Positions 17,277-27,754 of a stretch of DNA of 33,586 bases are shown here, piece by piece. Location: the NCBI GenBank assembly GCA_002070275.1, contig MWCY01000032.1:1-33586 (forward strand). The letters run 5' to 3'. Source of the stretch: Candidatus Hydrogenedentes bacterium ADurb.Bin170 (GTDB lineage: Bacteria > Hydrogenedentota > Hydrogenedentia > Hydrogenedentales > CAITNO01). Under the pieces are notes generated by a model, which worked only from the letters and a program-made list of their open reading frames with translations, was not told the DNA's origin and did no database searches. How positions within the stretch are numbered: position 1 is the first letter of the stretch; each line of letters begins with the position of its first letter. The translations under genes and the position numbers were made by a program.

Positions 17277-18296
17277 CTACTGACGAAGCCGTGGATCCAG
17301 CGCGTCGCGGAGACCGTCCCCCACAAGATTGAAAGAGACGACGGTCATGAAGATCGCAATCCCGGGGAAAGCAACGAGCCACCAGCCGAAGTCGACATAG
17401 TTCTGGCTCTGTTTCAGAATTTCGCCCCAGCTGGCAGTGGGCGGCGGAACGCCGAAGCCGAGAAAGCTCAGGGCGGATTCGGTGAGGATAGCCCCTGCTA
17501 CACCGAAAGTCGCGCTGACAAAAACCGGGCTCAGCGAATTGGGCAGGAGATGGCGGAAGATGATACGGCGGTCATTAAGTCCCGCCGCCCGGGCGGCAAT
17601 AGCATATTCCTGCTGCTTTTGTTTAAGAAATTCGCCGCGCACCAGCCGGGCAATGCCGGGCCAGCCGGTGAGCCCGATGACGACCATAATATTGATAATA
17701 CTGGGATCGAGGAACGCCATAACGGTGATGACCAGAAAAAAAGAAGGGACACAGATCCAAATTTCCACCAGGCGCAGCACGAGCATATCCACTTTACCGC
17801 CGTAATAGCCTGCCAGCGCACCGAGGATCACGCCCAGAAGAACGGCGATGCCTTCGGCGATAAAGCCCACGGACATGGAAATGCGGGTGCCCCAGATGAT
17901 GCGGCTAAGCACGTCTCTGCCCCGGTCATCGGTGCCGAGAAGATGTTTGCGGGAAGGAGGCTCAAGCCGTTCGCGGAGGCTCTGGCGCAGCGGTCCGTGC
18001 GGCACTGGCGGGCGCCAGGCAAATTCTCCGGCGCCGGGCTCCCAGCGGTCGAAGTTCTGATAGAGATTCTGTTCCTGCAATCCCTGATAGGTGAACAGAT
18101 TGGGCAGAATATACAGATGCCCATTCTGTTTCATCAGGATAGGGATATCCCCTGCGAGAAAAGGCGCAAAAAGTCCGACCAGTCCCATGGCGATGGCGAG
18201 GATCAGCCCCGCCAGAGCGGGCTTGTTTTTCGTGAACTGCCTCCAAACGAGGCTTTTCCGCTTTTTCGTTTCTATTACAGTGACAGGGTTATTCAT
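17277..18296 (-). CDS. dppC: Dpp/Opp/Yej-type ABC transporter permease (DppC-like)
   Basis: A 339-residue inner-membrane permease of the peptide/nickel importer family. The N-terminal OppC segment (TKNKPALAGLILAIAMGLVGLFAPFLAGD, residues 22-50) is followed by a long extracytoplasmic loop (about 50-115) reminiscent of YejE of the microcin C/peptide transporter, then HLLGTDDRGRDVLSRIIWGTRIS, five further membrane segments, the EAA loop (AARAAGLNDRRIIFRHLLPN) that docks the ATPase, and the family C-terminus VGDGLRDALDPRLR. Its start overlaps the DppB-like stop by 4 bp (ATGA). It is the last gene of the operon; no OppD/OppF ATPase genes follow, only the repeat island. Confidence 0.93.
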   Translation of the reverse strand: MNNPVTVIETKKRKSLVWRQFTKNKPALAGLILAIAMGLVGLFAPFLAGDIPILMKQNGHLYILPNLFTYQGLQEQNLYQNFDRWEPGAGEFAWRPPVPHGPLRQSLRERLEPPSRKHLLGTDDRGRDVLSRIIWGTRISMSVGFIAEGIAVLLGVILGALAGYYGGKVDMLVLRLVEIWICVPSFFLVITVMAFLDPSIINIMVVIGLTGWPGIARLVRGEFLKQKQQEYAIAARAAGLNDRRIIFRHLLPNSLSPVFVSATFGVAGAILTESALSFLGFGVPPPTASWGEILKQSQNYVDFGWWLVAFPGIAIFMTVVSFNLVGDGLRDALDPRLRQ

Positions 18297-19288
18297 CCGA
18301 GTTTGATCCTGGGATCGACAAAGACATACAAGATATCGCTGAGGAGAAGTCCGGCGAGGGTCAGGAGCGCCACAATAGTGACATCACCCATAATCAGGGG
18401 ATAATCCCGGCTGAGCACGGCTTCGAAGGCGAGGCGACCCATGCCCGGTATGGAGAAAATCGTTTCTATGATGATGCTTCCGCCGATCAGTCCGGGGAGT
18501 AATCCGCCCAGCAGCGTTACAATGGGAATGAGTGCGTTGCGCAATGCATATTTCCAGGTGACGGTTTTTTCTGAAAAACCATAAGCCCGGGCGGTGCGTA
18601 TGTAATCCTGCCGGAGCACGTCCAGCATGCCGGAACGCATATAGCGGGAGAGAAAAGCAAGCCCTCCATAGGTCATGCAGAAGAGAGGCAGCGCCATATG
18701 CCAGAGGAGATCCAATAAGCGCATGAGCGGTGAATAACTGTCGGCATCGGCGGAGTGCAGTCCCTGAATGGGAAAAAGATTCAGGTACTCGCCGCCGCCC
18801 AGAAAGAGCACAAGCAGCATGGCGACCCAGAAAGCGGGCATGCTGTAGAGCAGGAAGAGGGAGAAGGTGAGCGTGCTGTCCTGCCAGGTGCCGCTGTGGG
18901 TGGAAGAAAAAAGCCCGAGGGGAATGGCGATCATATAAATGAGAATCAGGGACAGCACGTTAAAGAGCAGCGTGATAGGCAGCGCCTCGCCGATTTTTTC
19001 AATGACAGGCCGCTGATCTTTCATGCTGTTTCCGAAATCAAAGCGCGCCATACGCCCCAGCCAAAGGAGATACTGCACAGGCAGCGGCTTATCCAGTCCG
19101 TAGAGCGCCTTGGTCTGCTCGATAATTTCCTGCGTTGCCGCATCAGCCTTCATGGAGCCATCCATCCCGCGGAGCTTGAAAGCAATAGGACTTCCCGGGG
19201 CAAGCTGGATCAGCATAAAAGTCAGCAGGCTGATCCCGATGAAAGTAGGGATGATGAGGAGCAGCCGTCGGATAATATACGCACGCAT
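18293..19288 (-). CDS. dppB: Dpp/Opp/Yej-type ABC transporter permease (DppB-like)
   Basis: A 331-residue permease, partner of the DppC-like protein. It begins with the OppB signature MRAYIIRRLLLIIPTFIGIS, followed by QLAPGSP, a periplasmic segment with ALYGLDKPLPVQYL, five more membrane segments, the EAA loop (TARAYGFSEKTVTWKYALRNALIP) and the C-terminal FVDPRIKLG. A loop with FPIQGLHS before the fourth helix resembles the YejB branch. The start at 19288 has AGGGGA 7 bp upstream; an upstream in-frame start would overlap the substrate-binding gene and delays the membrane segment. It lies 14 bp after the substrate-binding protein gene. Confidence 0.94.
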   Translation of the reverse strand: MRAYIIRRLLLIIPTFIGISLLTFMLIQLAPGSPIAFKLRGMDGSMKADAATQEIIEQTKALYGLDKPLPVQYLLWLGRMARFDFGNSMKDQRPVIEKIGEALPITLLFNVLSLILIYMIAIPLGLFSSTHSGTWQDSTLTFSLFLLYSMPAFWVAMLLVLFLGGGEYLNLFPIQGLHSADADSYSPLMRLLDLLWHMALPLFCMTYGGLAFLSRYMRSGMLDVLRQDYIRTARAYGFSEKTVTWKYALRNALIPIVTLLGGLLPGLIGGSIIIETIFSIPGMGRLAFEAVLSRDYPLIMGDVTIVALLTLAGLLLSDILYVFVDPRIKLG

Positions 19289-19302
19289 GGCATTTCCCCT
19301 GA

Positions 19303-20976
19303 TCAGGGCGGCGTGACGCCGGCGGTATTGGTGAAACGCTGCATCGTCCGGGGCACAAACCATTCACGCTGATCGATGCCGAAGGGATAGATGCGTATAC
19401 CCTGAATGCGTTTATCACCTGCTGCCAGCACTTTCGGCGCCAGAAGAAAGAGATAGGGCTGTTCCTCGTGAAGGATTTCCTGAAAGCGATGGTAGAGGCG
19501 GATACGCTCCTGCCGGTCGAAGGAAAGACGTGCCTCTTCGACGAGCCGGTCCGCTTCAGGATTGACAAAGCCGATATAGTTGGAGCCGTGGTCTGCCTGA
19601 GAGGAATGCCATACCTGATAGGGGTCGGGGTCGGGCGGCATACTCCATCCCATGAGGATGGCATCAAACTCACGTTTGTCGACCCGCTCGAGGAGTGATG
19701 CCCATTCCATGAGCCTTATGGTGAGGTCGATGCCGATACGCGCCAGTTCTTCCTTGTACAGTGTCAGTACCTTTTCCGCCACGGGATTCTGATTGGTCGT
19801 TGCCGCTTCGAAGCGGAAGGGTATTCCGTTTCTTTCCAGCAGGCTGGTGCTCCTGTTAAAAACCCATCCGGCTTCGTTCAGCAGCTGCTGCGCTTTTTCC
19901 GGATCGAAGGGGAGCGGTTTCAATGCGCTGTTGCATTCCGGCGTGCCGGGCATGAAATTGCCGGCGATAACTTCCGCCTGCCCGTAATAGATTTCGTCCC
20001 GGATCAGGTCCCGGTCAAGCAGCATGGTCAGCGCCTGACGTGTCTCTTTGTCGCTGAACATGGCTTTGCGCAGATTCCAGCCGAGGTAGTTATAAGCGGG
20101 TCTGAAATAGGCAAAACGGTTGAACTGCTGCTGAAAGCGGGGGGTATTGGCACGGCGCATGAACAGTTCGGCAGGCATACTCATGAAATCGAGCTCCCCT
20201 TTGGCGAGCACCTGAAAGGCCGTATTGTCATCGGGGATGATGGCGTATTCGATGCGGTCGAACCAGGGCCTTCCTGCCTCGAGGGCGCCACGGTAGCGGG
20301 GGTTCCGCTGCAGGAGGAGGCGCTGTCCCGTGTCCCATGCTTCGAGAGTATACATGCCGGAACCGACGGGCTTCCGGTTGTTCGGGTGCCGGTTGAAATC
20401 CCCCTCGCCATAAATATGCTTTGGCATGATGCTGAGCCCGCCAAGCATGATCAGATGCTGATAATAGGGCTTGTCGCAGGTGAAGCGTACCGTGTATGCA
20501 TCAACGGCAATGCATTCTTTGATATCGATGAAATAGTTGCGCAGGTTGGGTGCATCTACGGCCGGATCCATGACTGTGTCAAAAGAGAATTTGACGTCCT
20601 GCGCTGTCAGCGGCGTACCATCGGAAAAAACAATATCATCCCGGAGGTAAAAAGTGTAGGCAAGATGATCCTCGGACACTTCCCAGCGTGCCGCGATGGC
20701 GGGCCTGCTTTCGAGCGTTGCGGGGTCCCGGTCGAGGAGCGTGTCGAAGATCCATTCCAGTACTGTGCTGGCGTAATAATCCGTGCTGGTGAGGGGATTC
20801 AGATGAGGCATTTCCGCCGGGAGCAGCAGCCGGAGCACGTCACCCTGCTCCGGCATCGCATCCGGCATGTATTCCGTGAGGATATCGCCGGGACCGGAAG
20901 TGCTTCGTCCGGTATCGCCGCATCCTGCAAAAAGCAATGCCACGAAAAGCAAGCACACGAATATGTACTGTTTCAT
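19303..20976 (-). CDS. peptide ABC transporter substrate-binding lipoprotein (SBP_bac_5)
   Basis: A 557-residue family 5 extracellular solute-binding protein. The lipobox FAGC puts the lipidated cysteine at residue 19. Family landmarks include the LEWIFDTLLDRDP segment near residue 72, AIAARWEVSEDHLAYTFYLR, DGTPLTAQDVKFSFD, VGSGMYTLEAWD near residue 200 and RQALTMLLDRDLI near residue 315. It captures oligopeptides (or nickel, glycans or opines in some relatives) and delivers them to the DppB/DppC pair encoded immediately downstream. AGGA precedes the ATG by about 8 bp. It follows the PIG-L deacetylase by 53 bp, and the four genes probably form one transcript. Confidence 0.94.
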   Translation of the reverse strand: MKQYIFVCLLFVALLFAGCGDTGRSTSGPGDILTEYMPDAMPEQGDVLRLLLPAEMPHLNPLTSTDYYASTVLEWIFDTLLDRDPATLESRPAIAARWEVSEDHLAYTFYLRDDIVFSDGTPLTAQDVKFSFDTVMDPAVDAPNLRNYFIDIKECIAVDAYTVRFTCDKPYYQHLIMLGGLSIMPKHIYGEGDFNRHPNNRKPVGSGMYTLEAWDTGQRLLLQRNPRYRGALEAGRPWFDRIEYAIIPDDNTAFQVLAKGELDFMSMPAELFMRRANTPRFQQQFNRFAYFRPAYNYLGWNLRKAMFSDKETRQALTMLLDRDLIRDEIYYGQAEVIAGNFMPGTPECNSALKPLPFDPEKAQQLLNEAGWVFNRSTSLLERNGIPFRFEAATTNQNPVAEKVLTLYKEELARIGIDLTIRLMEWASLLERVDKREFDAILMGWSMPPDPDPYQVWHSSQADHGSNYIGFVNPEADRLVEEARLSFDRQERIRLYHRFQEILHEEQPYLFLLAPKVLAAGDKRIQGIRIYPFGIDQREWFVPRTMQRFTNTAGVTPP

Positions 20977-21029
20977 AAGCCTGTTCCTGTGCAGTTGAAG
21001 GCGGGATACACTATGTACCCGGAAGCCCG

Positions 21030-21878
21030 TCAGGACATTTTGCGGATTCTGCCGGTCACATCCTCGTTGAAGCGTTTCATATGCGCTTCGACCAGCGCTT
21101 CCAGGGTCAGCGAATCATCAGTAAGAAGCGGACTGAGGTCTATAGCGTAAATAATTGCGACGGCAGTGTCGACAGCGTGTGATGCGCTGTAAGTGGCATG
21201 GGCACGACGCCTGCCGAGTGTGGCGAGGTCATAGCGTTTTCCTCCTGCCACCTGAGAATCAAACACACCGACGAGCGCCGCCTGCAGATTTTCATGGGCG
21301 GAAACATCAAAAGCGACTTTATCTTCATCACAGAGCCAATCCAGATCACGCCAGACTTCGCATCCGTAAAGATGTTTCGGCCGTTCTTCCTTCGGGAGGC
21401 GGCGCAGTGCGGCAATCAGTTTCAGCAGCACACCCACATGGGTGTCGTGTTTATCGGCTGGGTTGTGTGTGTAAATGACTTCAGGGCGGGTTGCTTTCAG
21501 CACAGCGACAAGGTCATCCACTACCGCCTGATTGGCGCCATCTTTCACGGCGCTGCTGGGATGGTTGAGAAGAAACTGTGCACCGTAGTCGCCGATGATG
21601 GCGGCTTTCTTCTGCTCGATACGCCGGACAGCCATCATCTCATCATCATTGAGATGGGCATAGAGTCCCGTCCGGGGCGAACCGCCGCCGTTGGTGACGA
21701 CAACACCGGCAAACCATTTGTCGCTCTGCTGAAAGCATTTGAGAATGCCGTCAGCCGCCATGATTTCGAGATCGTCCTGATGGGCACCCACAGCAAGATG
21801 GGTCACCCGGCTGAGCGCTTCGGGCATGGTCGCCTGATCAGGAACAAATACTTCAGCATCGGCAATAGAAAAGTTCAT
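21030..21878 (-). CDS. PIG-L/LmbE family deacetylase
   Basis: A 282-residue zinc-dependent N-acetylglucosaminyl deacetylase-like protein. The metal/catalytic motif is AHQDDLE at residues 32-38 (usually AHPDD/E; Gln replaces Pro), with the second signature HNPADKHDTHVGV giving the HxxH metal ligands. GGGSPRTG near residue 80 matches the substrate loop. Family members deacetylate GlcNAc-PI, the mycothiol and bacillithiol precursors, or antibiotic sugars; here the substrate is unknown. The start at 21878 has AAGGA 8 bp upstream, and an in-frame ATG at 21923 is rejected because its N-terminal extension is low-complexity and unlike the family. It heads the operon with the peptide importer, suggesting action on an imported amino-sugar-containing compound or peptide. 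Confidence 0.9.
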   Translation of the reverse strand: MNFSIADAEVFVPDQATMPEALSRVTHLAVGAHQDDLEIMAADGILKCFQQSDKWFAGVVVTNGGGSPRTGLYAHLNDDEMMAVRRIEQKKAAIIGDYGAQFLLNHPSSAVKDGANQAVVDDLVAVLKATRPEVIYTHNPADKHDTHVGVLLKLIAALRRLPKEERPKHLYGCEVWRDLDWLCDEDKVAFDVSAHENLQAALVGVFDSQVAGGKRYDLATLGRRRAHATYSASHAVDTAVAIIYAIDLSPLLTDDSLTLEALVEAHMKRFNEDVTGRIRKMS

Positions 21879-22006
21879 GATGAAATCCTTTATATAGGTG
21901 AAAGCAAAAACAAACACAAACACACCGCCTCTGCAGCAGAGACAGCTGTGCCGCAGCGCCCGGCACTATTTAATCCACCAGGCTGTTCCTGCGGAGAATA
22001 AAGGGT

Positions 22007-22015
22007 ATTATATCA
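22007..22015 (-). promoter_or_regulatory. extended -10 promoter for the PIG-L/ABC operon
   Basis: On the minus strand TGATATAAT combines a perfect -10 hexamer with the TGn extension. It predicts a start near 22000 and a 120-nt leader. No -35 box is needed for this class. Confidence 0.5.
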
Positions 22016-22090
22016 GGTTCAGCCGTGTGTTCCCATACAGGGACGGCGTGTCTGATTCTGTTGGGCGTCTCTTTTAACCGCAGAAGCAAT

Positions 22091-25000
22091 TTAGTTTTCT
22101 GCCGCCTGAGCCCGTGCGGTATCGAGTTTGTCCCGGATCTCCTGCCAGTCAGGCCGTTCCAGCAGAATGCGCTGGTATTCCCGGATAGCGGAAGGCGCAT
22201 CGCCTGTGAGCATGCGCATGTCGCCCAGAAGTGCCCGCACACGGAGATTATCGGGCTCAAGACGGAGCGCTGTTTCCAGCACTTCCACAGCCGGGGCTGC
22301 TTCTTTTTCCCGGGCATAGAGGCGCCCCAGATTCAGAAGCACGCTCGTGTTTTCCGGTTCGAGAGCGCGCGCCCTGAGATAGGCACTGATCGCTTCCTGC
22401 GTCTGCCCCTTCCTTGCGAGAAGATCACCGTAGTTGTTCCAGGCGAGAGCGAAATCGGGATACAGCTCCACGGCTTTCTGATAATAGCTTTCGGCACGTT
22501 CCAGTTCACCGCGGGCAAAAGAAACATCGCCCAGTCCGCAGTAAAGCCCCGCATCATAAGGCAGCGCTGCGCGTGCCGCCTCAAATTTTTCGAGGGCTTC
22601 AGCACTTTTTCCCTGACGCACCAGCAGGAATCCGTACTGTTTGAGGGCAACGGCATTGTCAGGACTGAGACGCAGCGCATGCCGGTACGCCGCTTCGGCT
22701 TCGTTGAGGTTATTTTCCGCCAGAAGCACATCCCCCTGCCCGATATAGGCTTCGGCATCATCGGGTGCCTGTTCCTGCGCCTGCAGAAAGAGCTCTTTCG
22801 CTTCGGCAAGACGCCCGAGCTCCACGAGCGTGAAACCAAGATTGACGGCGGTGCTCTGATTGCCGGGATCCAATTCCCGCGCCTGCCGGTAATGTCTGAG
22901 CGCCTGTTCCCGGTCGCCTTTCCGGCGGAGCAGCCCGGCAAGGTGATGATGTGCCAGCGCAAGGCCGTTATTTTCTTTTAATGCAGCCTCAAACTGTGCC
23001 AGTGCCTCCTCGGGGCGCTGCTGCATTTCCAGAATCAGTCCCCGGTTGAGGAGGGCGGTGCTGTGATGGGGATTCAGGCGCAGGAGCGCAAGGAACAGGC
23101 GGTCGGCCGCTTCCAGATTGCCGAGAAGATGGAGGGCATGGCCGGTATTGAAAAGGGCATCCTGATTCTCCGGATCCTGCGCAAGCGCCAGATCAAGCCA
23201 TTCCAGTGCCTCGGCGGGTCTGCCTGACATGGACAGCGAAAAAGCAAGGGCGTTTATGGCAATCAGATAGGCGGGATCGAGCAGCCAGGCGACGCGATAT
23301 GCCTGTAATGCCTCGTCGTGCTTTGACAGAGCGGCAAGGGCTCTTCCATAATCGCAGAAGAGGTCTTTCCGGTGGGGCAGCTGTTTCAGAAGCGGTGCCA
23401 ATGTATCGGCGGCAGATGCGGCGTCTCCCTCTTCGAGTTCGGCAAGGCCGAGCCGGTAGCGGAGCAGCAGGTTGTCCGGATCCAGCGCAACGGCTTCCCG
23501 GAAACGGGCTACAGCGTCCCCAAAGTTATGCCGGGCAATGGAAACCAGCGCCTGGTGGGTTCGAATAGCTGCGGATCCGGGCGCCAGCTGTGCCGCTTCG
23601 TTCAGCGCCTGTCCGGCTTCATCAAAACGGCGCAGGTCGTAGAGTGCCACACCGTATTCGTAATGCAGTGCGCTGTCGTCTGCCGCTTCGGAAGCTTCGA
23701 GCGCCGCCTTCAGGTAAGGGAGCGCATCGGCGGAACGCCCTTCGCTGCGGAGAAGGGTACCGAGGCTCCTGTTGGCGCCGAAGTGGCCGGGATCCAGCTG
23801 CAACGTTTCCAGAAAGAGACGCTGTGCCTCATCGGATGCATACTGTTGCTGCCGGATGAGCCCGAGATTGTAGCACACCTCCGGGTCGCCTGACAGAATG
23901 GTACGTGCCCGGTTGAGACGGATAAGGGCATTGTCCAGTGCTTTTTCTTTAATGTCCAGCAGCGCCAGTTCGAAGAGTGCTTTTCCATGATCGGGTGCCT
24001 GTTCCAGCACGGCTTCAAAATAGCGGCGCGCGCCTGCGGTGTCGCCAAGAGAATTCAGCGAGCATCCGTAATTGTAAAGAGTGTCGCTGTCCTCGGGGAG
24101 CAGTTCAAAGGCGCGGTCGAAGGCGTGTTTTGCTTCTTCTTCGTGATGGCGTCTGGCTTCGGAAAGACCGAGATTGGAATAGACTTCGGGATAGTCGGGC
24201 CGCAGACGCAGCGCCTCATGAAAATGCCGGACCGCCTCTTCATATTGCTTCAGCTGAATCAGCGCCAGCCCGGTATTGTAATGAAAATCGGCGCGGTCGG
24301 GTGCGTGCGTGAGTGCGGATTCAAAAAAGGAAAGGGCTTTGCTGTAGCTTCCTTCACCGGCGAGGAGGAGCCCGAGGTTAAATTCCGCCATGGCATAGCC
24401 CGGTGCGGCTTCCAGCGCTTTTTCCAGCAGAGCCTGCGCCCGGTCCCGGCTGCCCTCCTGCAGGAAGAGTGTGCTGCGGTCCACGAGCGCTTCCGGATAA
24501 CCTGGCTTCAGAGACAGGGCATGATCCAGCGCTTCACGCTGCAATCCGGTATCTCCCAGCATCTGCTGTGCCTGCGCCAGACCGAACCAGGCTTTTTCAT
24601 CGTTCGGCACACGATCCAGACGGATTCTGAAAGATTCGAGAGCTTCCTCCGGTCTGTTCAATTTGAGCAGCACAATGCCCTGATTGTAATAGGCGGCATC
24701 GTAGCCGGAATCGAGCGCAATGGTTCGCTGCAGGCAATTCAGCGCTTTCTCGTAGTCCCCTTTTTCAATCAGAAGGAGAGCAAGATGATACTGTCCGCCC
24801 GGGCTCTGCGGATGGCGTATATTCCACGCTTCCTGATCGGCGATGCCCTCATCGATCCTGTCGGTCTTCACCCAGAGCCGCCGCCGTTCATCCAGCCATC
24901 TCTCGGTGTCGGGCGTAAATGGAACAAGGGGTCTGCTGAGCAGTGCTGTGAGGAGGAGGAAGGCGGTAAGTCCGACAGCGGCTTTTTTAAACGCTTTCCG

Positions 25001-26428
25001 TCGCAGCCATTCAAACCAGTCAGAAACCGCCACAGCACCGAAGAGCAGCATGAAAGGAATGACGGGAACCCGATACCGCGCCGTGACATAAAAAAGAACG
25101 AATATTCCGCTGTATCCTGCCATTGCCAGCAGAAGGAGCGTCCATGCCGCCAAGTTTTCCTTTGTGCAGTTTTTTTCTTTGCGGATTGCCCGAATGAAAA
25201 GGAGTACGGCTCCCAACAGGAACAGCGCCATCGCCGGTGGAAATCCCGGCAGATAACGGAGGACGGCAAAATAGTCCTTTTCACAGGCAACCACTTTGTT
25301 CTCGTCAACCTCAACGGGCCCCCAGAAGAGAGCAGCCTTTTTAAGCATTAGCCAAAAGAGACGCTTTTTTTCTGTTGCTATGTATTTTCGATTGAGCTGT
25401 TTAAAATGTTTTTGGAGTTCTCTATAGGAGAGCGGCGTAATATTCTGAGCGCGAGCGCAAGCCTCCTGTATTGCAGGAAAAGAGAAAAAAGTCCATTCGT
25501 CATTTTTTTCCAGAGCACGCAAATCAGGGGAGTCGGGGTTTGTTCCAGTTGCCCATTGATTATTTGAACAATAGAAAACATAGGTTCCTTCGCCACCAAC
25601 AATAGGCAATACCTGCGCATGCTGATAGTTGTATACAGAAACCGGCGTGACGGGAATAATGCTAAACAGGCACCAGAGAGTGGTTCCTGCCAAGATCTTT
25701 TTCCAGTTCTTGCTTTTTAAATAACTAAACAGATGCACGCCCAGAAAAATAATTCCAAAGGGCAAAAATTCATTTCTAACAAGAAGAAGTATCCCGAATA
25801 GCAAAGCATTGATTGTTAAAAATAACAGGTGCTGTTTTTTAACAGCTTTGCTGCCAAACAGCGTTAAAAGAAGTAACAAAAAAACGATAAGGCTGGTTTG
25901 CCCCAGATCCATTTCGTAGAAGGGAAAAACGAAATAAAGGCTCATCAGGGCGGCGGCGGCGATACCGGCTTTATCGTTGTAAAGCCGTCGTGCAATGTCG
26001 TAGAGGAGCAGGATGCTGATCAGACCAAGGAACATCTGTATCAGCCGCGGCGCATCGTATCCGAGTCCGAAAATGCGGTAGATGCCCGACAACAGCCAGG
26101 AATAGCCGGGCGCATGCGGGTAGGGCAGCCAGTCGGCAAAAGGCTGTTCCCGTCCCGGCGGCGGCGTCCAATCGCCGGTAACGATAGCCCGCGCCCAGTA
26201 GTCCCTGAATTCAGCATCATGAAGAGGGTGCGCATAATCCGGGCCGCTACGGCTTTCGAGGAAGAGCGAGCAGCGGATGCCTGCTGCAATGAGGAGGCAA
26301 AGAACCAGGAGGATGCGCCGGAGCCGGGGATTCATGGTTCCGGTTCTGTCGCAGGTATCCGCCGATTGGCCCTCCGATGAAGATTCATGTCCACCGGGAG
26401 CGTCAATAGGGTGTACAGGCGGAGCCAT
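22091..26428 (-). CDS. GT-C (family 39-like) glycosyltransferase fused to a long TPR superhelix
   Basis: A 1445-residue protein. After a 31-residue polar leader, residues 35-510 contain about eleven membrane segments with the first-loop acidic motif (HDAEFRDYWARAI, near residue 70) and the PHAPGYSWLLS segment of PMT/ArnT-like GT-C enzymes, which take sugars from polyprenyl-phosphate donors on the periplasmic side. Residues from about 540 to 1440 are roughly 25 consecutive 34-residue TPRs (YNQGIVLLKLNRPEEALESF and the like). The same order of parts defines animal TMTC O-mannosyltransferases. Start 26428 is preferred because GAGGAAAGG lies about 8 bp upstream inside the J-domain gene, 4 bp after its stop; 26335 is an alternative. 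Codons around residues 170-370 are markedly AT-rich compared with the rest. Confidence 0.9.
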   Translation of the reverse strand: MAPPVHPIDAPGGHESSSEGQSADTCDRTGTMNPRLRRILLVLCLLIAAGIRCSLFLESRSGPDYAHPLHDAEFRDYWARAIVTGDWTPPPGREQPFADWLPYPHAPGYSWLLSGIYRIFGLGYDAPRLIQMFLGLISILLLYDIARRLYNDKAGIAAAALMSLYFVFPFYEMDLGQTSLIVFLLLLLTLFGSKAVKKQHLLFLTINALLFGILLLVRNEFLPFGIIFLGVHLFSYLKSKNWKKILAGTTLWCLFSIIPVTPVSVYNYQHAQVLPIVGGEGTYVFYCSNNQWATGTNPDSPDLRALEKNDEWTFFSFPAIQEACARAQNITPLSYRELQKHFKQLNRKYIATEKKRLFWLMLKKAALFWGPVEVDENKVVACEKDYFAVLRYLPGFPPAMALFLLGAVLLFIRAIRKEKNCTKENLAAWTLLLLAMAGYSGIFVLFYVTARYRVPVIPFMLLFGAVAVSDWFEWLRRKAFKKAAVGLTAFLLLTALLSRPLVPFTPDTERWLDERRRLWVKTDRIDEGIADQEAWNIRHPQSPGGQYHLALLLIEKGDYEKALNCLQRTIALDSGYDAAYYNQGIVLLKLNRPEEALESFRIRLDRVPNDEKAWFGLAQAQQMLGDTGLQREALDHALSLKPGYPEALVDRSTLFLQEGSRDRAQALLEKALEAAPGYAMAEFNLGLLLAGEGSYSKALSFFESALTHAPDRADFHYNTGLALIQLKQYEEAVRHFHEALRLRPDYPEVYSNLGLSEARRHHEEEAKHAFDRAFELLPEDSDTLYNYGCSLNSLGDTAGARRYFEAVLEQAPDHGKALFELALLDIKEKALDNALIRLNRARTILSGDPEVCYNLGLIRQQQYASDEAQRLFLETLQLDPGHFGANRSLGTLLRSEGRSADALPYLKAALEASEAADDSALHYEYGVALYDLRRFDEAGQALNEAAQLAPGSAAIRTHQALVSIARHNFGDAVARFREAVALDPDNLLLRYRLGLAELEEGDAASAADTLAPLLKQLPHRKDLFCDYGRALAALSKHDEALQAYRVAWLLDPAYLIAINALAFSLSMSGRPAEALEWLDLALAQDPENQDALFNTGHALHLLGNLEAADRLFLALLRLNPHHSTALLNRGLILEMQQRPEEALAQFEAALKENNGLALAHHHLAGLLRRKGDREQALRHYRQARELDPGNQSTAVNLGFTLVELGRLAEAKELFLQAQEQAPDDAEAYIGQGDVLLAENNLNEAEAAYRHALRLSPDNAVALKQYGFLLVRQGKSAEALEKFEAARAALPYDAGLYCGLGDVSFARGELERAESYYQKAVELYPDFALAWNNYGDLLARKGQTQEAISAYLRARALEPENTSVLLNLGRLYAREKEAAPAVEVLETALRLEPDNLRVRALLGDMRMLTGDAPSAIREYQRILLERPDWQEIRDKLDTARAQAAEN

Positions 26429-26432
26429 GCAC

Positions 26433-26753
26433 TCAGCCTTTCCTCAGCTTCTTGATATAGTTGTACGCTTCGTTGAGTGCGCGCATGGCATCTTCATCGC
26501 CCCCCAGATCAGGATGATGCACCTTTGCTTTGGAGCGGTAGGCTTTCTCTATTTCTTCCCATTTAGCGGAGGGGGTCACGCCGAGGAGCCGGTAACATAC
26601 TTCCGCATCACCGGCACTTTTTCCGGGTGCATCCGCCTGCGCCATGCTTTTTTTCACCTCATCGAAAAGACGACGAAAAAAACCGAGCAGCCCTGTGGCA
26701 TGAAGGATATAAAAGACGATTGCAAAAAATATAATTTTCGGTAAGCCGGGCAT
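26433..26753 (-). CDS. membrane-anchored J-domain protein
   Basis: A 106-residue protein with an N-terminal membrane helix (IIFFAIVFYILHATGLLGFF, residues 7-26), a short linker and a C-terminal J domain (about residues 50-105) that contains the obligatory HPD (KVHHPDLGG) and the helix II/III segments EEIEKAYRSKAK and MRALNEAYNYIKKL. It should stimulate DnaK ATPase activity close to the inner membrane. AAGGA lies 9 bp before the ATG at 26753. It is placed 51 bp after the rhomboid gene and 4 bp before the GT-C/TPR gene, which suggests chaperone help during synthesis of that very large repeat protein, although this is only positional inference. Confidence 0.88.
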   Translation of the reverse strand: MPGLPKIIFFAIVFYILHATGLLGFFRRLFDEVKKSMAQADAPGKSAGDAEVCYRLLGVTPSAKWEEIEKAYRSKAKVHHPDLGGDEDAMRALNEAYNYIKKLRKG

Positions 26754-26804
26754 CCGGAAAATCCTTTGAGTACGTTCAGGAAACTGTGTCTTTGTTTGTC
26801 CGGG

Positions 26805-27476
26805 TCAGCGTCTTCTGCTTCGCCGCCAGCTGTGATATCGGGGAATGCCTTTCATGAGCGCACCGCCCGCAAGCATCCCGCCGAAGTGGGTGGCAACGGA
26901 AATACCTGAATTGCCGGATCGTGCCATGAGGATATTGAAAATGACCACAAGAATAACGAGCCATACGGCCGTTACGGGAACAGGCAGCGGGAACAGCAGA
27001 AACTGGCGCTGCGGATCGATCATGGCAAAGGCAACCAGCACACCCATGGTCGAGCCGCTCGCCCCGATAATCAGCGCTCCGTGTCCGGTAGCCAGATAAG
27101 GCACCAGCGAAGCAAGTACGCCCAATGCACCGCAGGCGATATAAAAAAACAGGAACTGACGCGAGCCCAGCAGACGCTCCACATCGGGCCCGAAAACGAA
27201 AAGCCACAGCATGTTCATAAAGAGATGGAGGAGCCCGCCGTGGAGAAACTGATAGGTGAAGGGCATCCACAGGAAGCCGTGCAGAAAAGCTGCCGGCTGA
27301 AAGCCGAACCACATATCCAGCCGGAGCCAGGACGAAGCGAGCCCCGTTTCAAAAGGATAGGCAATGAGCTGCAGGGCAAAGCAGGCGGCATTCACCAGAA
27401 TAAGCATCTGCACCGCCCAAGTGATGCGGGGCGTATGAAAAAAAGCACCTTGCTGCTGAAAAGAAAATTGCTGCAT
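26805..27476 (-). CDS. rhomboid family intramembrane serine protease
   Basis: A 223-residue six-helix membrane protease. The catalytic dyad is Ser140 in GASGS (GxSG, fourth core helix) and His197 in ATHFGG (last core helix). The HGGLLHLFMNMLWL segment (79-92) supplies the conserved L1/helix 2 His and Asn residues that stabilise the oxyanion. Rhomboids cut single-pass membrane proteins near the membrane surface. A basic tail (SWRRSRRR) ends the protein. The ATG at 27476 is chosen because a promoter at 27547-27576 would start transcription only about 10 bp before the alternative TTG at 27530; its Shine-Dalgarno sequence is weak. It is the first gene of the operon with the J-domain and GT-C/TPR genes. 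Confidence 0.92.
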   Translation of the reverse strand: MQQFSFQQQGAFFHTPRITWAVQMLILVNAACFALQLIAYPFETGLASSWLRLDMWFGFQPAAFLHGFLWMPFTYQFLHGGLLHLFMNMLWLFVFGPDVERLLGSRQFLFFYIACGALGVLASLVPYLATGHGALIIGASGSTMGVLVAFAMIDPQRQFLLFPLPVPVTAVWLVILVVIFNILMARSGNSGISVATHFGGMLAGGALMKGIPRYHSWRRSRRR

Positions 27477-27546
27477 ATGACCGATACCGTAAGAGTAGTG
27501 CCGGCTGTCTTCCTGTTCGATGAAATCCAAAGCCAGTCTTTCACTT

Positions 27547-27576
27547 ATTGTACACTATGCACGGAGGGCTGCCCAA
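27547..27576 (-). promoter_or_regulatory. promoter for the rhomboid/J-domain/GT-C operon
   Basis: On the minus strand TTGGGC (27571-27576) and TACAAT (27547-27552) are 18 bp apart, with a predicted start near 27540. It is back to back with the dprE1 promoter, about 85 bp away. Confidence 0.45.
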
Positions 27577-27659
27577 TAACGCTTCCCTGCGTGAGCCCGG
27601 ATAGCGCTGCGGCCTTTACAGAAAAAGACGGCGTATTTTCTCTTTTCTCTTTATGACCT

Positions 27660-27689
27660 TTGTTACCTCCGGCGCTTTTTCGGTATACT
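27660..27689 (+). promoter_or_regulatory. promoter for dprE1-dprE2-ubiA
   Basis: TTGTTA and TATACT are 18 bp apart. The predicted start near 27696 leaves a leader of about 59 nt to the GTG at 27755. Confidence 0.45.
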
Positions 27690-27754
27690 GAACTGCCTGA
27701 CTTTTCCTGTCAGAGTGCTCTGTGTCTGGTTTTCCACGGATGGAAGGACGTTCT

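Follow-up and report, generated by a model that had tools for sequence, protein, structure and literature searches.

An AT-rich, fast-diverging segment in the GT-C domain of a putative Hydrogenedentota glycosyltransferase, with trees and synteny pointing to vertical descent

The window, i.e., the whole stretch of DNA analyzed here, is a complete 33,586-base contig from an assembly of 164 contigs and 3.5 Mb. It carries a long gene for a GT-C + TPR protein, which we compared throughout with its orthologue in G001, one genus-mate (Candidatus Hydrogenedens) returned by the family search. The features discussed below are as follows:

26805..27530, minus strand: rhomboid-family ORF, upstream of the transferase gene; syntenic with the genus-mate (79%)
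26433..26753, minus strand: DnaJ-domain ORF, 106 aa, immediately upstream; syntenic with the genus-mate (58% identity)
22091..26428, minus strand: GT-C (PMT_2) + TPR protein gene, 1445 aa, from its ORF and translation, Pfam, the AF2 model and the ArnT match
26216..26218, minus strand: codon of D71, the presumed EL1 active-site Asp; invariant in 44 aligned sequences (alignment A1, column D42); outside the patch
25338..25938, minus strand: AT-rich patch, approximately residues 164–364, 39.6% GC, from ML segmentation of the gene
25070..25072, minus strand: codon of R453 (ARYR motif), the presumed lipid-phosphate-binding Arg; invariant in 44 sequences (A1 column R424); outside the patch
21030..21923, minus strand: PIG-L-family ORF, downstream; syntenic with the genus-mate (84%)

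The DnaJ-domain and rhomboid-family ORFs (26433–27530) lie on the transferase strand in the same order as in the genus-mate, and the three genes may form an operon that connects the transferase with a chaperone co-factor and a membrane protease. Downstream (17277–21923), oligopeptide-type ABC permease and binding-protein genes and the PIG-L-family gene also keep the genus-mate order, with identities to the genus-mate of 79–92%, well above the 64% of the transferase itself.

The reading frame of the GT-C + TPR gene is open through all 1445 codons, uninterrupted as the earlier note had reported, and encodes an N-terminal membrane sugar-transferase domain (approximately residues 34–500) followed by a long TPR array. 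Pfam matched PMT_2 (PF13231; E 2.8e-16, 62.9 bits vs a gathering cut-off of 26.1, residues 105–260) as well as TPR families, and PMT_2 was the only Pfam match at E 0.01 in residues 1–520. The predicted fold of the N-terminal domain is GT-C, based on an AF2 model of residues 30–600 (mean pLDDT 92.9) and its structural matches: ArnT (5f15) came first (Z 23.5, rmsd 3.3, 310 residues aligned), with the best oligosaccharyltransferase chain at Z 21.9 and the best PMT chain at Z 20.2. The input to this model was alignment A1, i.e., 44 of the 47 sequences, with the near-duplicates L041, L125, and L129 left out. The match to the NCBIfam LA_3751/LA_3752 putative glycosyltransferases (34.1 bits) was under the curated cut-off of 200. 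Overall, 37 of the 60 genomes searched contained a GT-C domain match at E 0.001, several within open frames of 1300–1500 codons, and the genome studied here has seven GT-C domain matches, this gene included. A literature search returned no paper on the gene or on intragenic AT patches in its family.

The earlier note had put positions 25321–25920 at about 41% GC and the flanks near 55–60%. Both values hold up: we measured 40.7% for these positions and, by part, 60.6% for residues 1–160, 40.5% for the patch, 54.5% for residues 370–520, and 58.8% for the TPR part. Outside the segment delimited by ML segmentation, the remainder of the gene has 58.5% GC, and over the window 600-bp GC reaches its minimum at 25341–25940 (40.0%; 600-bp mean 55.1%, sd 3.0). 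Segmentation on third positions singled out residues 180–366 (39% vs 62% elsewhere), with a log-likelihood gain of 17.8 vs 11.2 for the best of 100 codon permutations. The boundaries, which had been called abrupt, are so on the N side; on the C side the transition is gradual, with overlapping 60-codon windows at 0.41, 0.44, 0.52, 0.52, 0.52, and 0.56. Among overlapping 600-bp windows drawn from a 400-kb genome sample, 0.47% had ≤40% GC. Among 150 ORFs of at least 350 codons, mechanically called from this sample and the window, the GT-C + TPR gene displayed the deepest 200-codon GC3 dip (-0.22, followed by -0.18, -0.17, and -0.15), and the patch is the end of a continuous range in this set. Its contrast is sharpened because the flanks exceed the genome-sample mean GC of 52.8%. 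Elsewhere in this genome, two adjoining genes at locus L104 (G000:C16, 537–5684), possibly an acquired cluster, exceed all others in the 400-kb sample in their codon-corrected AT shift.

Part of the dip follows from the protein itself. With genome-sample average codons, the amino acids predict 57.7% GC for the N part, 46.5% for the patch, 53.8% for the C part, and 56.2% for the TPRs, so that amino-acid content accounts for about half of the drop. That the amino-acid content of the membrane core is the whole cause is nevertheless very improbable, and this is refuted by the third positions, where GC3 falls by 0.21. Total GC in the patch drops by 0.167 relative to the flanks here, vs -0.057 to +0.033 in the same segments of 46 homologues, none of which goes past -0.057. 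The earlier claim of a dip beyond amino-acid content thus stands, and the same dip in orthologues, named there as evidence to the contrary, was seen in none of the 46 homologous segments compared. Nor does hydropathy account for much of genome-sample GC3 (r = -0.13 over 1048 windows), and the patch is itself hydrophilic in its second half. We likewise rejected a general AT preference of membrane-coding windows as too weak (mean codon-corrected GC3 of -0.029 in 45 hydrophobic windows and -0.002 in the others).

The 46 homologues are extracted loci, near-duplicates among them, and not all GT-C matches: loci L024–L031 were unused as short matches, L037, L115, and L116 were dropped at <70 bits, and L114 has no 400-codon frame. 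The latter (G001:C115:19001-23000) is a GT-C paralogue of the genus-mate with internal stop codons and a second match at overlapping coordinates, apparently a frameshifted or decayed copy. Genomes G013 and G016, classed as separate species, have three common GT-C orthologues that are 98–100% identical in the compared segments and a fourth pair at 85–89% (the pairs being L041/L042, L125/L128, L127/L129, and L126/L130). The uniqueness of the dip holds for the patch segment and not for the whole open frames of the homologues, where the 200-codon GC3 dip of L023 is deeper (-0.25, located right at the beginning of its stop-to-stop frame) and those of L056 and L043 measure -0.17.

Between flanks and patch, the drop expected from amino acids amounts to -0.085 in this gene and -0.061 in the G001 orthologue, the two largest of the 47 genes. 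In these two, Phe, Ile, Asn, Lys, Tyr, and Met together contribute 33% and 34% of patch residues, vs 23–25% in the four g3 orthologues. The synonymous residue of the dip, in turn, lies 6 sd from the 46 homologues. Therefore, the protein-level bias is partly common to the genus, and no other genome compared shows the codon-level bias. Four-fold sites of the patch have a base composition (A.19, C.23, G.19, T.39) similar to that of the genome's own windows with four-fold GC of 0.4–0.5 (A.22, C.23, G.23, T.32); four-fold GC ≤0.42 occurs in just 3 of 457 200-codon windows of the genome sample.

Structured RNA, repeats, and promoters were considered as well and rejected. Rfam gave no match at gathering scores in 22000–27700, and 24800–26500 contained no direct repeat and a single 17-nt inverted pair (82%). 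Promoter-like and terminator-like signals in the latter interval numbered 2 and 4, vs 1.1 and 2.3 in shuffles, respectively. A virus-borne copy was rejected as well, since none of the 26 pattern-matching stretches in a viral scan encoded a relative.

Next, we evaluated the descent of the patch. An assembly chimera, conceivable for an assembly in this many contigs, is the least probable account we weighed and close to negligible: the frame is uninterrupted, the match to the G001 orthologue is gap-free across residues 40–520 (121/121, 209/209, and 151/151 residues aligned), and synteny is kept, with seven consecutive genes including this one co-linear with G001. Separate trees for residues 40–160, 161–369, and 370–520 (12 taxa) all pair the gene with the G001 orthologue (UFBoot 97, 100, and 100). 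For the patch, the AU test gave p 0.995 for this pairing and ≤0.007 for each of five alternatives tested; the SH test left trees 2 and 3 unrejected (p 0.14), and these two trees had borderline AU values (0.051–0.053) when only the first half of the patch was analyzed. The topology tests covered 12 of the 30 sequences then aligned, and a TPR tree comprised 11 sequences. The best non-self patch match across 68 phylum genomes is the G001 orthologue (50% identity), and the matches keep the order of the flanks, with four g3 genomes at 38–41% and G011 at 31%. A scan of genome contigs matched the patch in four relatives, the best at 49%.

Because the trees are congruent, the best match is G001, and synteny is conserved, a distant or paralogous donor is not supported, and the patch and both flanks point to a common family history with vertical descent as far as the sampled relatives show. 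A recombination event involving a divergent homologue or paralogue would fit the composition contrast, yet it is highly improbable given these congruent trees, the rejection by the AU test of five alternative placements of the whole patch, and the paralogues found in the genome itself, just 24–29% identical over the patch. The origin in a divergent lineage proposed by the earlier note is thus not supported; congruent patch and flank phylogenies are what it had itself named as evidence against such an origin.

The divergence of the patch is nonetheless unusual. The patch is 49% identical to the G001 orthologue vs 72% for the flanks. The patch/flank divergence ratio of 2.13 exceeds that of every other listed pair whose flanks are ≥0.50 identical, except for a near-identical pair at 2.61. 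For three further pairs from these two genomes, whose orthology was assumed from their identity, the ratios are 0.59, 0.76, and 1.05. Other subfamily pairs range from 1.05 to 1.70, with L045/L046, L044/L046, and L043/L045 at 1.58–1.70; thus, the segment tends to vary across the subfamily. On a fixed topology (9 taxa, 5–95% ranges from 60 bootstraps), the patch/flank branch-length ratio is 3.4× for this tip (2.1–9.0), 1.6× for the orthologue tip (1.0–2.4), 1.04× for the stem, and 1.3× for the whole tree. Polarized changes follow the same direction, with 23 of 126 informative patch sites vs 14 of 192 flank sites changed in this lineage (Fisher p 0.004), and 29 of 126 vs 28 of 192 in the G001 orthologue (p 0.07). 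The excess divergence is therefore mainly on this lineage. Its changes cluster best at residues 186–208 (equalled in 3 of 200 permutations), and those of the orthologue at residues 201–279 (equalled in 0 of 200). Set against the composition breakpoints, the changes of this lineage cluster at 186–208 only, with informative sites being few and synonymous sites near saturation. Synonymous divergence was rejected as a clock: four-fold identity to the orthologue is 0.33–0.43 in the four parts vs 0.24–0.28 at saturation, so that no dating can be drawn from these sites.

Two readings can be weighed against these patterns. The main rival is a short-range homologous replacement, in which the patch came from an orthologue of an unsampled AT-richer lineage within or just outside the genus. 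Such a donor would fit the composition break, which occurs in this gene only of the 47 compared, together with the long patch tip, 3.4× the flank, and the divergence ratio of 2.13. It would also give a slightly short stem and a slightly long orthologue tip relative to the 1.3× average, as observed, albeit within error. However, no patch closer than that of G001 was found in 17 family or 68 phylum genomes (own genome in both counts), the contig scan, or the viral scan; the changes of this lineage do not appear block-like or matched to the composition edges; the four-fold composition is host-like; and other subfamily members diverge in the same segment (the pairs at 1.58–1.70 above). We consider this replacement possible, with a probability that is appreciable but well short of even. 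The recombination proposed in the earlier note is thus partly supported: the dip goes beyond amino-acid content and the patch is unusually diverged from the genus-mate, a divergent donor is not supported, and a replacement from an unsampled close relative is the form in which it may still apply.

We prefer, with slightly better than even confidence, a lineage-specific, fast, AT-drifting evolution of the membrane/periplasmic segment in place. The patch would then belong to an otherwise ordinary bacterial GT-C + TPR glycosyltransferase as an integral, vertically inherited part that evolves fast, its amino acids probably changing in this lineage at approximately two to three times the rate expected from the flanks and the remaining tree. 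The AT drift would have proceeded through Phe/Ile/Asn/Lys/Tyr/Met-rich residues, common to the genus-mate, and through AT-ending synonymous codons in this genome only, either under weaker constraint or through a diversification of substrate-contacting residues. In-place drift alone does not explain why the synonymous shift is seen only here, nor the sharp N-side edge; the 6-sd synonymous residue, the three same-genome pairs without extra patch divergence, and the rarity of four-fold GC ≤0.42 also count against it.

Residues 161–369 correspond to residues 132–340 of the AF2 model, in which D71 sits in the loop after the first helix, consistent with an acidic residue in the first periplasmic loop. 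On the presumed topology, the patch would comprise membrane helices past this first loop and a second long loop read as periplasmic. By analogy with ArnT, TMTC, and the sugar transferases described in PMC7801869, this long loop would line the substrate groove with both its substrate cavities, and D71 and R453 are the candidate active-site and lipid-phosphate residues, respectively. Both presumed functional residues lie in the flanks, and none of the 11 invariant columns of alignment A1 falls within residues 161–369; the segment that the earlier note called catalytic does not hold the presumed catalytic Asp. Of six patch positions conserved at ≥90%, five are kept here (G212, R218, P262, N267, and P301; residue 354 is K, not P), so that the patch reads as part of a putative working enzyme. 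Its reaction would be sugar transfer to an acceptor from a polyprenyl-phosphate donor, and the TPR arm may bind a partner or that acceptor.

In these respects the protein resembles bacterial PMT_2/ArnT-type GT-C enzymes, with its PMT_2 match, ArnT-nearest predicted fold, and invariant Asp past the first helix, but it adds a TPR part of approximately 900 residues and is only 14% identical to ArnT over the structural alignment. The paralogues in its own genome and phylum have the same GT-C domain, and those among the 46 compared lack the patch dip. Like animal TMTC1-4 O-mannosyltransferases, it combines a membrane GT-C domain with subsequent TPRs. The TMTC-specific Pfam domain, DUF1736, was however not matched in residues 1–520 (Pfam, E 0.01). 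The EL1 motif also differs, being D-D in TMTCs, according to PMC7801869, vs D-A here (H-D-A-E at 70–73), i.e., the DD motif is absent. That paper further describes full-length prokaryotic GT-C + TPR homologues of TMTCs, e.g., AMJ42_05695, and the architecture is thus of an already known kind.

Taken together, this locus is a caution: a sharp intragenic GC dip resembled recombination, yet trees and synteny indicate vertical descent among sampled relatives. An unlikely extension would be that close relatives within the Hydrogenedentota exchange the substrate-lining segment as a cassette, with the EL1 catalytic part and the TPR arm remaining unchanged, so that donor or acceptor choice would evolve by short intragenic replacements. 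If short-range replacement were true, the patch would mark a GT-C segment under diversification and would offer a way to study how substrates are chosen in a large, uncharacterized bacterial family.
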